Of a DNA stretch of 42,468 bases, positions 838 through 25,303 are shown piece after piece; within the stretch, counting starts at the first letter, position 1; the number at the start of each line of letters is the position of its first letter. The DNA lies in NCBI RefSeq assembly GCF_947305105.1, contig NZ_CAMZCS010000028.1:1-42468 (forward strand), given 5' to 3'. Position numbers and translations under genes: made by a program. Under the pieces are notes generated by a model, which had not been told where the DNA came from, ran no database searches, and saw only the letters and a program-made list of their open reading frames with translations. Origin of the DNA: an uncultured Fibrobacter sp. Lineage in GTDB: Bacteria; Fibrobacterota; Fibrobacteria; Fibrobacterales; Fibrobacteraceae.

Positions 838-2253
838 TCATTTAACGACGACGAAGGAACGGCGGTCCACGCCGGGAGCCTTCACGCGCATCACATAGAC
901 CCCTGCGGGTAAGCTCCGCGTAATCCAAGCCGTATTGCCCATTTTCGCAGGCAAGACATCGACACGGCGAACTAACGCACCCTTCGTATTAAAGAGGCTC
1001 ACGCGGTAAAGGCCCAGCACAGGGACATCAGCAATTTTTAGAACTATACGATTCGAAGATGTATCCTCCGGGGTCGAATCGCGGACAACAGAATCTTGTG
1101 GAATGGAATCGCTTGCAGCGGTATCACGAGATGCCGTATCTTGAACTACGGTGTCTCGAGTTGTCGTGTCCTGGGTTGTCGAATCTTGCTTGGCCGTATC
1201 TGCCACGGTCGTATCTTCGGTAGCGCTGTAACATTCGGCAATATTTTCAAGGTTGGCTCCGGCACCGGCTTTCACCGCAGCTTCCACTTCGCTCGCCTTG
1301 AGCATGAAACTTTCGTATTCATACGGCGGCATAAAGGATTTTCCCGTTCCCTTCGTATTGCCCGAGCAGTTCGTGAAGATGTTGTCGATAGTCTCGTTCA
1401 CGCCCGTACCGTTCGCGTTGCCGGTATAAATCGGGTTCGATTCGTTGATGAACACGTTCCTTTCGGTACGGACCGTACACATGTGACCCGCCGAAACGCC
1501 CAGCACGTCCGTCCCGTTCGTGATGCTTGCGTCGCCAGTCAGGAGGTTGTTCACCACGTGCACGTTCCCGTAACGACAGCGCGGTTTGCGCTGGTTCGCA
1601 GCCTGCCACCAGTTGAACATGTAGGTCACGTTCAGCTTACCCTCGCTTACAGGCTCGTTGTCGGAACTGCCAATGAGGTTCGAAAGGTTGTGCGTGCTCT
1701 TTTTCTTGTAGCCGAAAATGCACCACGTAAACGTTACGTTGTCCGCACCCTTCACCACGTCGGCATTGCCGTCCTGGCCGTCCCAGAATTCGCAGTGGTC
1801 AATCCAGATGTTCTTCGCCTCGCCCTCGATGGTGAGGTTGTCCCACGCCTGGTCGGCATTGCTGCCCGGCCCCTGGATGACAATGTTACGCACGATGATG
1901 TTCGAAGCCTTGTTCGTGATATGGATGGGAGCCTTCAAAAGCGTCCCCGGTTTGAGACCGATAATCGTCTTGTTCGAAGCCGTAATGTTCAGGCGGCTGC
2001 CAGAAGTACCGCTCCAGCCATCCCCGAGAGTCCCATCAATATAGATGATACGCGGAGAAGAATCCTTCGCGTACTTTTGCAAGTCAGAAAAAGTCCTAAC
2101 GGTATCGGGAACGGCATTTCCGCCACCCGTCACATTGAATTCGCCACCGGTACGCCCTTCACGGGTCGCCCAGCCAATCGGCTGACAGACATCCATGGCG
2201 GCAAGCGCATATACGGGTAAAAAAGAAAGCAATAATGCTAGCTTCAACTTCAT
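838..2253 (-). CDS. Secreted pectate lyase (PL1 family) with C-terminal sorting-like domain
   Basis: This is a predicted secreted enzyme that cleaves pectate by beta-elimination. I place the start at 2253: the following M-K-L-K-L-A-L-L-L segment is a clean signal peptide ending near ALAA, and a GAGG sits 9 bases upstream. The upstream in-frame ATGs at 2313, 2301 and 2262 would bury the signal peptide. The parallel beta-helix body has the PL1 features IWIDHCEFWDG and NADVVKGADNVTFTWC, and an R-K-P-R-C-R-Y-G stretch that carries the catalytic arginine. A linker of about 50 residues follows, made of degenerate Asp-Thr/Ser repeats (xxDTxxQDS). The last 70 residues are beta-rich (GLYRVSLFNTKG, LPAGVYVMRV) and end in basic and hydrophobic residues, like type IX secretion sorting domains. 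The sorting role is inference. Confidence 0.88.
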   Translation of the reverse strand: MKLKLALLLSFLPVYALAAMDVCQPIGWATREGRTGGEFNVTGGGNAVPDTVRTFSDLQKYAKDSSPRIIYIDGTLGDGWSGTSGSRLNITASNKTIIGLKPGTLLKAPIHITNKASNIIVRNIVIQGPGSNADQAWDNLTIEGEAKNIWIDHCEFWDGQDGNADVVKGADNVTFTWCIFGYKKKSTHNLSNLIGSSDNEPVSEGKLNVTYMFNWWQAANQRKPRCRYGNVHVVNNLLTGDASITNGTDVLGVSAGHMCTVRTERNVFINESNPIYTGNANGTGVNETIDNIFTNCSGNTKGTGKSFMPPYEYESFMLKASEVEAAVKAGAGANLENIAECYSATEDTTVADTAKQDSTTQDTTTRDTVVQDTASRDTAASDSIPQDSVVRDSTPEDTSSNRIVLKIADVPVLGLYRVSLFNTKGALVRRVDVLPAKMGNTAWITRSLPAGVYVMRVKAPGVDRRSFVVVK

Positions 2254-18829: not shown

Positions 18830-19738
18830 TTATTCAGCGTTCTTGACGCAACGCAGCGAATATCCCGTGGATTTCAGGTTGTTGTACACGCCCAAGAAAT
18901 CCTCGTTCGCAAAGTAGAGATTCCAGTAAGGCGCACGGCCCGCCTCGGAAGCCTCAGTGGCGACCCAGAAGTTGCAATCCTGGCCTAGATAGTTGAACAC
19001 TCCGTTAGAATTGCGGTAACCGCCCGGCACAGCGCCGAACCCGAACCGGTCTGTTCCCGGCGGGGCCTCGTCACTCTCTTCCCAGCCATCCTTTTTCTTC
19101 AGGCTGGTCCCGACGCCCTCTACAACGGAATCCTTGAGATCTTTCAACCTCTTGCGCAAACTGGAGTAGAGAGACTTCATCTCAGCGCTTGTCGGCACAT
19201 GCCAGCCTTCAGGACAAATTCCACGACGTTCCGCCGTGAGAGAATCCTTTGCGGACTTGTTCAAGAAGGAATCGTCAAGCCCTACAGCCGTAGTCCACTT
19301 GTAAAGCCTGCCATAAGCAGAACAATTCTCCTGCTTATCCTCGTAGCACCAGCTTCCGGGTGCATTGAACTTCAGGTTTTCCGCCATCCAGAGCTGCCCA
19401 CCCAAACGGACAGTGCGGTAAATACGGCCATCGCGTTTGTCGCACAAGCCCGCATTCAAAGCCTCGGCGCACAAGTCCGGTGCCACAGACGAGGACGACG
19501 GCACCGGCTTAGGAGGACGCGGTGCCATCGAAGACGAACTTGGCGGAACCTCAACACTAGTCGGCACAACGACTTCGGAAGACGACGACTCAATCTCCTC
19601 CGAAGAGGAGGTTTCAATAATCAGTTCTGACGAAGAAGATAACAGAGGCCTCGGCATTTCCTTGACATCGGAACATGCACAAAACAAAGTCGCCAAAACG
19701 GCAACAGAAAATGCGGGAATTAAGCGATAATTCTTCAA
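18830..19738 (-). CDS. FISUMP-domain lipoprotein
   Basis: The 302-residue surface lipoprotein has a signal peptide with lipobox F-C-A-C (Cys at about 22). A linker of about 65 residues rich in Ser clusters, Glu and Pro follows. The C-terminal domain is the Fibrobacter major paralogous (TIGR02145, FISUMP) domain: D-G-R-I-Y-R-T-V-R-L-G-G-Q-L-W-M-A-E-N-L, Y-G-R-L-Y-K-W, C-P-E-G-W-H-V-P-T, F-G-F-G-A-V-P-G-G-Y and a final Y-S-L-R-C-V-K. The family is abundant in Fibrobacter, and its molecular role is not established. Four Cys in the domain probably form disulphides. Confidence 0.9.
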   Translation of the reverse strand: MKNYRLIPAFSVAVLATLFCACSDVKEMPRPLLSSSSELIIETSSSEEIESSSSEVVVPTSVEVPPSSSSMAPRPPKPVPSSSSVAPDLCAEALNAGLCDKRDGRIYRTVRLGGQLWMAENLKFNAPGSWCYEDKQENCSAYGRLYKWTTAVGLDDSFLNKSAKDSLTAERRGICPEGWHVPTSAEMKSLYSSLRKRLKDLKDSVVEGVGTSLKKKDGWEESDEAPPGTDRFGFGAVPGGYRNSNGVFNYLGQDCNFWVATEASEAGRAPYWNLYFANEDFLGVYNNLKSTGYSLRCVKNAE

Positions 19739-19847
19739 TTTTTTCCTTCTTAGTTATCAAAGAATATATAAAAATCAGCCAAGATGCGCTAGATTTTCCC
19801 AAAAAAAGCCCCATTCCAAACGTTTATTATCAATATTTGAGCCCCCT

Positions 19848-20181
19848 CGGGATATATCTCAGCCTGGTAGAGCGTCTGCTTTGGGAGCAGAATGTCGTCA
19901 GTTCGACAAAATACGCGGTGAACGAAGGCAACCGAAAAAAATTGCTTTGATTAAAAAAATTTGAGCGAGACCAAGTGCAGGCAGGAACGAAAAGAGGCGA
20001 ATACTGGAGGTATTTGCCTCTTTGAGTGACGAACCGGCACGCCGGTCGCAGCCAAATTTTTGAAAATGAATTTTTTGAGGTTGCCTAAAGTGAATAAAAG
20101 CGTATTTTGCGCGGCATCTGTAAGGATGACGCCCGAAGGGCAAAATGGAGCAAAGCGACATTTTGCAATCTGGCTACCCAA
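19848..20181 (+). pseudogene. Interrupted copy of tRNA-Pro(TGG)
   Basis: Bases 19848-19906 copy the first 59 bases of the intact tRNA-Pro at 20264, identical from the D arm through the anticodon (TTTGGGA loop) to GTTCGA in the T loop. The tRNA sequence resumes at 20168 with ATCTGGCTACCC. The 261 bases between are foreign. The acceptor stem has decayed (CGGGATA against TACCCAA), so the copy cannot be functional. About 50 bases upstream of both copies are also related (for example CCATTCC at the same distance), so the original duplication included the leader. Confidence 0.85.
19907..20167. repeat. Palindromic element inserted in the T arm of the tRNA-Pro copy
   Basis: The main part, 19907-20109, is one long imperfect inverted repeat. 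CAAAATACGC (19907) pairs with GCGTATTTTG (20100), and GGCAACC (19927) pairs with GGTTGCC (20079). The apical stem AAAGAGGCGAATAC (19991-20004) pairs with 20010-20023 around a TGGAG loop, with one G-T wobble. A tail (20110-20167) has the hairpin GCCC-GAA-GGGC and the inverted pair GCAAAATG/CATTTTGC (20140, 20159). It contains no credible gene. It resembles a miniature inverted-repeat element or a structured RNA. Confidence 0.82.
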
Positions 20182-20247
20182 ATTATAAAAACTTCCTAGA
20201 GAAACTAGAATTTCCAAGAAAAAGTTCCATTCCGGGCGTTAATTTGC

Positions 20248-20253
20248 TATATT
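20248..20253 (+). promoter_or_regulatory. Probable -10 box of tRNA-Pro
   Basis: TATATT lies 10 bases before the tRNA. A matching -35 is weak (TTCCAT at 20225, 17 bases upstream). The broken copy has a related upstream region with CAATATTTG at the same place. Confidence 0.5.
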
Positions 20254-20263
20254 TGAACCACCT

Positions 20264-20337
20264 CGGGGTGTAGCTCAGCCTGGTAGAGCGTCTGCTTTGG
20301 GAGCAGAATGTCGTCAGTTCGAATCTGGCTACCCCGA
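20264..20337 (+). tRNA. tRNA-Pro (anticodon TGG)
   Basis: This is a complete 74-nt cloverleaf: acceptor CGGGGTG/TACCCCG, D arm GCTC/GAGC, anticodon stem TCTGC/GCAGA with loop TTTGGGA, and T loop TTCGAAT. The discriminator is A; CCA is not encoded. A strong terminator begins within its last bases. Confidence 0.97.
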
Positions 20338-20376
20338 TACAATAAATGCACCCCTCGCGGGTGCATTTATTGTATC
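20338..20376. terminator. Terminator after tRNA-Pro
   Basis: An 18-bp perfect stem runs from 20336 (inside the tRNA acceptor end) to 20353 and from 20359 to 20376, with loop CTCGC. The right arm contains TTTATT. Because the stem shares the last bases of the tRNA, folding of the terminator and of the tRNA acceptor stem may compete. Confidence 0.85.
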
Positions 20377-20379
20377 TCA

Positions 20380-20434
20380 GGTAGATAGTGAGAACTGACG
20401 AAGTCAGTTCAACATTTTGCTATCTGGCTACCCC
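20380..20434. repeat. tRNA-Pro 3'-end-derived hairpin
   Basis: GTCAGTTC and ATCTGGCTACCCC, both from the tRNA-Pro T arm and acceptor end, occur here separated by AACATTTTGCT. The inner hairpin is GAACTGAC-GAA-GTCAGTTC (8 perfect pairs). GGTAGATAG and CTATCTGGCTACC form an outer stem. The segment ACATTTTGC-ATCTGGCTACCC is almost identical to the right junction of the palindromic element at 20158-20179. Confidence 0.75.
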
Positions 20435-20455: not shown

Positions 20456-20485
20456 GAACGACGAAGTCAGTTCGACAAAATTCGC
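20456..20485. repeat. Second T-arm-derived hairpin with left element end
   Basis: GAAC-GAC-GAA-GTC-A-GTTC folds as a bulged hairpin and is followed by GACAAAATTCGC. That matches the left junction of the palindromic element (GACAAAATACGC at 19905) at 11 of 12 positions. The rest of the gap, 20486-20657, is AT-rich and shows no other clear element. Confidence 0.65.
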
Positions 20486-20657: not shown

Positions 20658-21473
20658 ATGAAGCCGATAACCGAATATCAAGATTACCGAAAATACTTAT
20701 TGGACTACTTTGACTGGCGCAAAAGAACATCCGCATTCTCGTGGCGCGAATTTTCCAAACAGGCCGGGTTTGCATCGCCGTCGTACATCAAGCTCGTCTG
20801 CGACGGCAAGAGTTCCCTCAGCCGTGTGGGCGTGCCTCTGGTTGCGGCAGCCATGAACCTTTGCGACTACGAATGCGACTATTTCAAGTACATGGTCGAC
20901 TTCACGAACGCGAAAGATGACGACAAGAAAAAAGAAGCCTTCCGCAAAATGGAAGAAATCGCGAAGGAGCAGCATGCTCGCGTTCTCAATGCAGATGCGT
21001 TCGACTATTACGAATCGGCAGTGAACTCCATCGTCCGTGAATTGGCTCCGCTGATGCCGGGAGCGCTTCCGGGCGACATCGCCAAAAAAATCAAGCATAA
21101 CTTTACGGCTCAGGAAGTCCGCGACGCATTGAAACTCTTGGTCAAGCTCAACATCCTCACGACCCAGGGCAAGGATGCCTACAAGCAGACCGACAAGATC
21201 ATCACCGGTTCCAGCGAATCGCTCATGCTGGCGCTGCGTTCCATGAACCGCCAGATGATCGACCTCGCCCGCGAGGCCATCGATAAAGTCAAACCGGCAG
21301 AGCGCAACATCTCGGGCGTGACCGTGGGCGTCGATGCCAAGGCGTTGAAGCGCATATCGGACGAAGTAGACCGTTGCCGCAAAAAAGCCATCGCCATTGC
21401 TGGCGAATGCGACAACGCCGACCAAGTCTACCGCCTAAACTTGCAACTTTTCCCGCTGACAGAAAAAATATAA
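20658..21473 (+). CDS. TIGR02147-family (DUF4423-like) protein
   Basis: This 271-residue soluble protein belongs to the second large paralogous family described in F. succinogenes. The N-terminus I-T-E-Y-Q-D-Y-R-K-Y-L-L-D-Y-F, then F-S-W-R-E-F-S-K-Q-A-G-F-A-S-P-S-Y-I-K-L-V and the G-K-S-S-L-S segment are diagnostic. The first 70 residues read as a helix-turn-helix-like unit, so a transcriptional role is often supposed but not shown. The middle part is also winged-helix-like (L-L-V-K-L-N-I-L). A good GGAGGT precedes the start, and the next lipoprotein gene follows by 10 bases, so this protein may control or accompany that lipoprotein. Confidence 0.85.
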   Translation: MKPITEYQDYRKYLLDYFDWRKRTSAFSWREFSKQAGFASPSYIKLVCDGKSSLSRVGVPLVAAAMNLCDYECDYFKYMVDFTNAKDDDKKKEAFRKMEEIAKEQHARVLNADAFDYYESAVNSIVRELAPLMPGALPGDIAKKIKHNFTAQEVRDALKLLVKLNILTTQGKDAYKQTDKIITGSSESLMLALRSMNRQMIDLAREAIDKVKPAERNISGVTVGVDAKALKRISDEVDRCRKKAIAIAGECDNADQVYRLNLQLFPLTEKI

Positions 21474-23965: not shown

Positions 23966-25303
23966 ATGAAAAAAATCGCACTCTTGGCCGGGACCTGCGC
24001 TCTGTTCATTCTTGTCGCCTGCGGCGGCGATTCCTCCACAAGTGCGTCGAAAAACGACCTGTCCGACCCCGCCGAAGCAACCGCTCCAAAAGAAACGGAC
24101 CCAAAAGATTCCGGTAGCACCGTAAAAGAAGCGGCAGAAGACTCCGACATTATCAGCGACGGGGATTCCACAAATGTGTCCACAGGAAAAAGTTCTTCTT
24201 CCGTAAAAGCAGAAAACACATCTTCTGCTGAACAAACAAAGAGTTCTTCCTCCGTAAAAGCGAGAAGTTCCTCTTCTTCTGTAAAAGCAGCGAGTTCTTC
24301 GTCCGAAACGCCTGTTGGAACTTCTTCTTCCGCCAAGGAAGAGACTGTTGTTTCCTCCTCCGGCCCGTTCAATCCCTGCAGCGAGGCCCCAGCCCTTAAA
24401 GAAAACTGGAAATACTTGAACCCAGACGTTCAGTATGGCTGTTTCAAGGATTCCAGAGACAATCAATACTATGCGACCGTCAAAATCGGCAATTATACCT
24501 GGATGGCCGAAAACCTGGCATACGATTATATATATGCCCCCCGCACACAAGATTCATGGTACGGATACAGCAAAAAAGGAGCCGATGACCAGAATCACCG
24601 AGGATACCTGTATACCTGGGACCTCGCGATGGCCGATACAAACTGCCGCAGAGAAAACTTATGCAAACCACGAGGCCAAATGCGCGGCCTCTGCCCAGAA
24701 GGGTTCCACATTCCCTCTTACTGGGAATGGCAAGACCTTTTCAATGCCGTTGGCGGAGTAGACATAGCAGCCCGCGAACTCAAGTCTACAGAGGTTTGGG
24801 ACAACACGGCAAAAGGTACAAACAAGTACGGTTTTAGCGTGATTCCTAACGGGCCTCGATACGGAGCAGGGTATTCCAATCCTGTTGATTTCAATACAGA
24901 CTTTTGGACTTCCGAAGAAACCGGAAAGAATGTAACCATTTCCATAGTTTTTTTAAGCGACGACAAAGTCAATTCATTGGCATTTGAAAATAAGGAATAC
25001 GGCTTTTCCGTTCGCTGCCTCATGGATCATCCAGAACAAGAAACGCCCCATTCTGGCATACCCCATGATCCAGATAAATTATACCAGTGCGACGAAATGC
25101 TAATGGACGACATAAATACCTGGCATTTCAAAAACGAATCACAAACTGAATTCCAGTACTTTATTGACGACCGTGATTCAATATCTGTTCGTATAAAAGA
25201 CTCCTATTCAGATCACACATCTAAATCAGGCTACGCCAACAACGAGTACGATCTTTACATTATGTTCTGGGCAGCCTTGAACAGCTGTTTGCCACGCTAC
25301 TAA
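23966..25303 (+). CDS. FISUMP-domain lipoprotein with C-terminal extension
   Basis: This 445-residue lipoprotein has lipobox L-V-A-C (Cys at about 19), a linker of about 110 residues with Ser clusters alternating with V-K-A, and then a FISUMP domain. The landmarks are Y-A-T-V-K-I-G-N-Y-T-W-M-A-E-N-L, G-Y-L-Y-T-W, L-C-P-E-G-F-H-I-P-S, Y-G-F-S-V-I-P-N-G and the terminal Y-G-F-S-V-R-C-L. About 90 further residues follow with no recognised domain. An AGGATAG sits before the start. It is a paralogue of the gene at 18830 but with an extra C-terminal part. Confidence 0.88.
   Translation: MKKIALLAGTCALFILVACGGDSSTSASKNDLSDPAEATAPKETDPKDSGSTVKEAAEDSDIISDGDSTNVSTGKSSSSVKAENTSSAEQTKSSSSVKARSSSSSVKAASSSSETPVGTSSSAKEETVVSSSGPFNPCSEAPALKENWKYLNPDVQYGCFKDSRDNQYYATVKIGNYTWMAENLAYDYIYAPRTQDSWYGYSKKGADDQNHRGYLYTWDLAMADTNCRRENLCKPRGQMRGLCPEGFHIPSYWEWQDLFNAVGGVDIAARELKSTEVWDNTAKGTNKYGFSVIPNGPRYGAGYSNPVDFNTDFWTSEETGKNVTISIVFLSDDKVNSLAFENKEYGFSVRCLMDHPEQETPHSGIPHDPDKLYQCDEMLMDDINTWHFKNESQTEFQYFIDDRDSISVRIKDSYSDHTSKSGYANNEYDLYIMFWAALNSCLPRY

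Follow-up and report, generated by a model that had tools for sequence, protein, structure and literature searches.

Why should a second copy of a tRNA gene be broken at one exact point of its T loop by a long palindromic insert? The question is raised by positions 19848-20181 of the window, by which we mean the whole 42,468-nt stretch of DNA analysed here, all of contig C28 of an uncultured Fibrobacter sp. Our reading, to which we give a probability of about 0.75, is that the split copy is a decayed duplicate of tRNA-Pro(TGG), that the core of an RtT-like unit has been joined into its T loop, and that a MITE-like palindrome was inserted later in the tip of hairpin P3 of that unit. The features concerned are as follows.

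19771-19847, plus strand: second copy of the tRNA-Pro(TGG) 5' flank, formerly a promoter region, 82% identical to 20187-20263, within repeat D1.
19848-19906, plus strand: 5' part of the decayed tRNA-Pro(TGG) duplicate, from the 5' acceptor strand to the T-loop TTCGA; it matches the intact gene, and genome G071 has a 99% identical split copy.
19907-20109, plus strand: hairpin P3 of the RtT-like unit, which the nested palindrome has made longer, with outer stem CAAAATACGC/GCGTATTTTG; G071 and other genomes have P3 without the nested palindrome.
19927-20085, plus strand: nested MITE-like palindrome with ends GGCAACC/GGTTGCC, which has dispersed matches and is missing from the orthologous split copy of G071; its ends were set from a 20-copy alignment.
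20111-20132, plus strand: hairpin P4 of the unit, from the fold and the unit alignment.
20132-20140, plus strand: hairpin P5, CCCGAAGGG (signature CCCGNAGGG); profile model R1 matches 20052-20180 with E 8e-10.
20140-20166, plus strand: hairpin P6, GCAAAATGGAGCAAAGCGACATTTTGC, from the fold and the unit alignment.
20168-20179, plus strand: 3' part of tRNA-Pro (3' strand of the T arm and part of the acceptor strand), ATCTGGCTACCC, direct repeat D4.
20263-20338, plus strand: intact tRNA-Pro(TGG), called by ARAGORN and by the Rfam tRNA model (63.7 bits).
20336-20376, plus strand: terminator-like hairpin 3' of the intact tRNA, with 18-bp perfect arms (inverted repeat I1).
20380-20434, plus strand: internally deleted RtT-like unit consisting of T-arm hairpin GAACTGACGAAGTCAGTTC, the end of P6 and the tRNA 3' end (R1 34.5 bits, E 3.1e-7); its full-length counterpart is in genome G080 (locus L068).
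20460-20485, plus strand: remnant of another unit (GACGAAGTCAGTTCGACAAAATTCGC), repeats D2 and D5, with just 13 bits against R1.

Read directly in the window, the segment 19848-19906 matches the intact tRNA-Pro(TGG) gene over its 5' portion; that gene starts 416 bp further on. The copy breaks after TTCGA (19906) and ATCTGGCTACCC picks up again at 20168, so that the insert comprises 261 bp (19907-20167), the first part of which is a 203-bp hairpin ending in CAAAATACGC (19907-19916) and GCGTATTTTG (20100-20109). The strand 19902-20170 folded at -105.4 kcal/mol, against -64.7 +/- 4.4 for shuffled sequences (z -9.3; 0 of 200 as good), so the hairpin is not due to chance. The direct reading and the fold thus bear out the break, the insert length and the hairpin described in an earlier note on this DNA. 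The duplication also includes the 5' flank, since 19771-19906 matches 20187-20322 at 82% (repeat D1, 136 nt). Two further pieces of units, 20380-20434 (GAACTGACGAAGTCAGTTC...ATCTGGCTACCCC) and 20460-20485, are found 3' of the intact gene and its terminator-like hairpin. These two pieces, the acceptor-stem substitutions and the nested palindrome described below are additions to the earlier note. The neighbouring segments 18830-19738, 20658-21473 and 23966-25303 encode paralogous FISUMP-domain and TIGR02147 proteins typical of Fibrobacter.

The acceptor strand of the split copy reads CGGGATA where the intact gene has CGGGGTG, substitutions that disrupt the acceptor stem, and neither ARAGORN nor Rfam called a tRNA at 19848-20181. 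Split copies joined at TTCGA were present in at least five other genomes: G071, G096 (in tandem), G079 and G124, as well as G074 for Pro(CGG). The G071 copy is 99% identical to that of the window over 78 bp, and its acceptor stem is likewise broken by substitutions. The split copies of G079 and G124 do not differ from the intact gene in their 5' half, and their 3' end, by reading, still fits the acceptor stem. This identity, and the recurrence of split copies in several genomes, would be expected of a working split tRNA, either one whose insert is excised in the manner of an intron or one that, with its enlarged T loop, serves as a decoy. We regard such a function as extremely improbable given the broken acceptor stems in the window and G071, the failure of both programs to call the window copy, the intact gene that lies 3' of every split copy read, within about 210-420 bp, and an insert unlike any known intron.

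The insert itself consists of two nested things, an outer RtT-like unit and a palindrome of ~159 bp (19927-20085) within P3. Copies matching the palindrome were scattered through 35 of 80 Fibrobacter genomes, and an alignment of 20 copies showed terminal inverted repeats of the type GGNNACC...GGTNNCC. The palindrome is also short and non-coding and is MITE-like; no constant duplication was seen by eye in the flanks of the 20 copies. The earlier note had proposed a miniature inverted-repeat element that uses tRNA T arms. The first half of that proposal holds for the inner ~159 bp, but the targeting does not, as a tRNA gene was found within ~1.5 kb at none of the 19 other palindrome loci read. 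In the sister species G071 the same site lacks the nested palindrome and P3 is short (GGTGAATGAAATGAACATTAGCG), which most simply means that the ~159 bp arrived later in the window. That the whole 203-bp hairpin is a single MITE inserted into a tRNA copy by targeting the T arm would account for the dispersal and terminal inverted repeats of the inner palindrome. It is, however, very improbable, because the inner copies lie away from tRNA genes, while the outer part, P3-P6, sits behind tRNAs, is not dispersed and clusters by tRNA type. The same G071 junction, with the outer unit and without the inner one, refutes the whole insert as one MITE. Nor is the insert unique, as relatives of both the unit and the nested palindrome are present in dozens of genomes.

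The outer part can therefore be considered separately from its MITE-like passenger. From 5' to 3', a unit has the tRNA 3' end and T arm in inverted copy, then the T-arm hairpin P2 (with a GAA loop and ending in GTTCGA), hairpins P3, P4, P5 and P6, and lastly the tRNA 3' end; in many cases a terminator comes next. The units are non-coding and almost wholly palindromic. The N of the P5 signature CCCGNAGGG was A in 33, T in 8, G in 8 and C in 2 cases. Among 16 distinct 5' arms of P3, 12 had a perfect 9/9 partner, and P3 arms were complementary at 8.28 of 9 positions to their own partners vs 4.13 of 9 to swapped ones. Tandem G-A tips (GA..GA; e.g., GAACGAAGTGAA), recognised by their letters, occur in P3 and P6, and the loops on the tRNA strand are C-GNA-G and C-GNNA-G with any N. 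In the Pro(CGG) loci L060 and L081 one unit holds two P3-P6 cores back to back with no T arm between them, indicating that cores can be concatenated. In another genus, the P4 hairpin of a Pro(CGG) unit (L346, G057:C21) is enlarged by a palindrome that resembles part of the dispersed MITE-like element.

Across Fibrobacter, units were found behind tRNA-Pro(TGG), Pro(CGG), Ser(CGA) and Gly genes, usually past a terminator. The genome of the window has a like arrangement behind Pro(CGG) and Ser(CGA), each with the sequence of its own tRNA: the T arm of the respective tRNA forms the end of a hairpin (GTGAGTTCGAC, GAGGGTTCGAC) and more hairpins come next, followed at the Ser(CGA) locus by copies of the tRNA 3' end. 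Of 167 genomes from the phylum, 44 had the T-arm hairpin pattern GAACNNNCGAAGNNNGTTCGAC, every one of them in this genus, vs near 0 hits for the reversed-pattern control, and the pattern matched solely Pro-CGG, Pro-TGG and Ser-CGA/Gly-CCC T arms. The tRNA survey combined a family search with sequence stretches, and the taxa of the contig-wide scan are those among the matches listed. At loci with a callable tRNA the first hairpin is on the tRNA's strand, ~50-65 bp behind it. Profile R1 was made from 26 units, of Fibrobacter only; beyond this genus it matched units in four more genera of the family, and none in 14 genomes from other families of the phylum. A literature search on palindromes at Fibrobacter tRNA genes, mostly outside subscription journals, returned nothing relevant.

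Units are sometimes repeated in tandem with a period of 190-200 bp, in up to six copies. In the six-unit array of G128 the period is 190-250 bp, and each unit is followed by the tRNA 3' end and mostly by a terminator-like hairpin, which varies among the units. Contigs G000:C9 (97348) and G000:C60 (L338), and likewise several contigs of relatives, end inside Pro-CGG units. Assemblies thus break at these arrays, and unit copy numbers based on short reads are probably underestimated.

In a set of 34 Pro(TGG) loci fetched by tRNA sequence or place, and so chosen independently of the T-arm hairpin pattern, ~25 had pieces of their own T arm within 300 bp or an R1 match. About eight, all with the same downstream gene, were empty, which indicates that the element is dispensable there; one clade has no units. 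Unit cores clustered by tRNA type for 50 of 53 nearest neighbours, indicating that units mostly evolve in place and rarely switch tRNA.

The connection between unit and T arm was evaluated by swapping tRNAs. Pieces of a tRNA's own T arm were found downstream of 45% (5') and 50% (3') of tRNAs vs 7% and 3% after swapping. In two groups of mixed taxonomy, inverted copies of the 5' strand were found for 32-46% of own vs 1-2% of swapped tRNAs. Many loci had been fetched by a pattern containing GTTCGAC, which inflates the absolute rates and leaves the contrast between own and swapped unaffected. These controls rule out chance repeats. In G044, of another genus of the Fibrobacteraceae, the T arm of tRNA-Ser has GAGAG for GAGGG and the unit follows suit. 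Tracking is imperfect in the Gly(GCC) units of L031 (G000:C2), L339 and L344, which have GGTGCGAC or GGGCCGAC where the tRNA has GGTCCGAG. Two other T-arm repeats in G000 were set aside, that of Asp(GTC) being a plain tandem tRNA and that of Arg(ACG) a different type of repeat. At L042 (G000:C1), behind tRNA-Arg(ACG), the tRNA 3' end and a terminator are in tandem with GNRA-loop palindromes between them and no T-arm interruption. The link to the T loop suspected in the earlier note is real; it belongs to the outer unit, which carries T-arm copies of the tRNA ahead of it, and not to the palindrome.

The T loop is a known class of integration site. The junction TTCGA^ATC within it, together with the restoration of the tRNA 3' end in each unit, could mark attachment sites left by the integrases of phages or integrative elements. 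Such a footprint is improbable, as attachment sites have no need of inverted T-arm copies or of a conserved series of hairpins. In agreement with the earlier note, the flanking genes examined included no integrase; as far as tested, no att-type cargo is involved either. The T-arm hairpin pattern was present in 16 viral contigs, but in 0 of 16 beside a tRNA, and a phage origin of the hairpin was rejected on this basis. For the split copies, recombination through the shared T arm best explains the junctions. Recombination between the repeated tRNA 3' ends and T arms would add and remove units, and a split copy would arise when, in a duplicated tRNA locus, the exchange falls in the T-arm 5' strand common to unit and tRNA. 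The direct evidence from Fibrobacter comprises the anatomy of the units, their tracking of the T arm in both orientations, the tandem arrays, presence or absence between species and the constant split junction.

RtT RNA (Rfam RF00391) corresponds to the ~178-bp terminal repeats (rttR) of the E. coli tyrT operon. It has been known in E. coli for decades and, to our knowledge, has no agreed function. It is reported there as an RNA (PMC4986893, PMC8092127), released from tRNA operon transcripts, and in a Pasteurellaceae genome it adjoins the tRNAs for Asn and Lys (PMC4986893). RtT carries a tandem G-A motif (PMC7657543), varies in copy number in Salmonella, as rtT (PMC2658671), and is cold-induced in Thioalkalivibrio (PMC8092127). 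In E. coli K-12 the parts of the tyrT repeats come in the same order as those of a Fibrobacter unit. R1 detected the three tyrT repeats and a fourth between tyrT and tyrV (E 3e-7 to 8e-5). It also detected gammaproteobacterial RtT loci, fetched by RF00391 and not by the T-arm hairpin pattern, behind tRNAs for Lys, Ser, Arg and Pro (L306, E 1.5e-8; L293, 2.9e-8; L316, 1e-6). The T arm, tRNA-derived everywhere, contributes part of this reciprocal signal. The repeat between tyrT and tyrV (L370, E. coli K-12 NC_000913.3:1286000-1288200, 1365-1482, minus strand; 30.6 bits, E 3e-7) is an RtT-like unit; the NC_000913.3 record annotates only rttR, behind tyrV.

In the other direction, RF00391 scored Fibrobacter units at 18.9-27.5 bits, under its gathering score of 45, and had no match at E<=1 in G000. 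All seven weak matches in Fibrobacter loci fell on units and on the right strand. The gathering score was reached in Marinobacter (47.4 bits, behind tRNA-Val), Buttiauxella and an Oceanospirillaceae genome. Since their covariance scores remain under the cut-off, we call the Fibrobacter units RtT-like rather than members of the family. They are a variant of the known, poorly understood RtT kind, here with an ordinary mobile palindrome nested in it. By analogy with E. coli RtT RNA, transcription from the tRNA promoter probably reads through into them, and their transcripts are probably processed at tRNA-like ends. The proposal, also made in the earlier note, of a structured RNA carried by a duplicated tRNA promoter came close for the outer part, an RtT-like repeat that normally lies behind tRNA genes.

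The stems of the units contained 5 G-T vs 6 A-C mismatches, whereas acceptor stems of tRNAs from the same genome contained 20 G-U vs 2 A-C (Fisher p 0.008). The absence of a G-U excess is unexpected if selection acts on RNA alone, and a DNA-level role, or palindrome-templated repair, is possible. Taken further, the units would act as DNA, with hairpins extruded in single strands during replication or recombination and RNA as a by-product, while palindrome-templated repair or a hairpin-binding protein would keep their stems perfect. Near-perfect Watson-Crick stems in 12-24 distinct arms, with A-C mismatches as frequent as G-T, speak for this, as do the loops, C-GNA-G and C-GNNA-G being a class of very stable DNA mini-hairpins. 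On balance this stronger form is doubtful, given the small mismatch counts, the stability of such loops in RNA too and the reports of RtT as an RNA in E. coli cited above. Broader still, and in our estimation unlikely, is the proposal that the units represent a class of hairpin-only elements in two phyla, anchored to tRNAs, with direct and inverted sequence rewritten to suit the T arm of the particular tRNA ahead of them, maintained at the DNA level as near-perfect palindromes and able to capture tRNA genes via the T loop; they would then be neither transposon, integron nor ordinary RNA gene, and E. coli rttR would be the best-studied case.

Returning to the RtT-like units as such, a puzzle familiar chiefly from a single locus of E. 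coli is now found in two distant phyla. The occurrence of this architecture across the Fibrobacteraceae and many gammaproteobacteria, on many tRNAs, turns an operon oddity into a problem that can be compared across dozens of natural replicates. It also provides a rule for such work, namely that each unit holds its own tRNA's T arm in direct and in inverted copy. In addition, the units account for a recurring kind of broken tRNA copy and call for caution with assemblies, which break at their arrays.

Among known systems, MITEs, REP/BIME and ERIC elements resemble the nested palindrome in being short, non-coding and dispersed with terminal inverted repeats, but differ from the outer unit, which is tRNA-anchored and not dispersed. 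Attachment sites of integrative elements in T loops share the position of the junction and the repeated 3' part of the tRNA; unlike them, the inserts studied here have inverted T-arm copies and consist of 110-260 bp made up wholly of hairpins, with no cargo and no integrase seen. Compared with RtT, the Fibrobacter units score under the Rfam cut-off, follow Pro, Ser and Gly tRNAs, mostly have a terminator before, and often also after, each unit, and are found as well in split tRNA copies, within the T loop, where the copy has an upstream flank of its own. What the two have in common is a position behind a tRNA gene, possession of that tRNA's 3' end, an inverted T-arm copy that closes the unit, a T-arm hairpin, the order of the hairpins, CCCGAAGGG, the tandem G-A tips and tandem copies of similar period.
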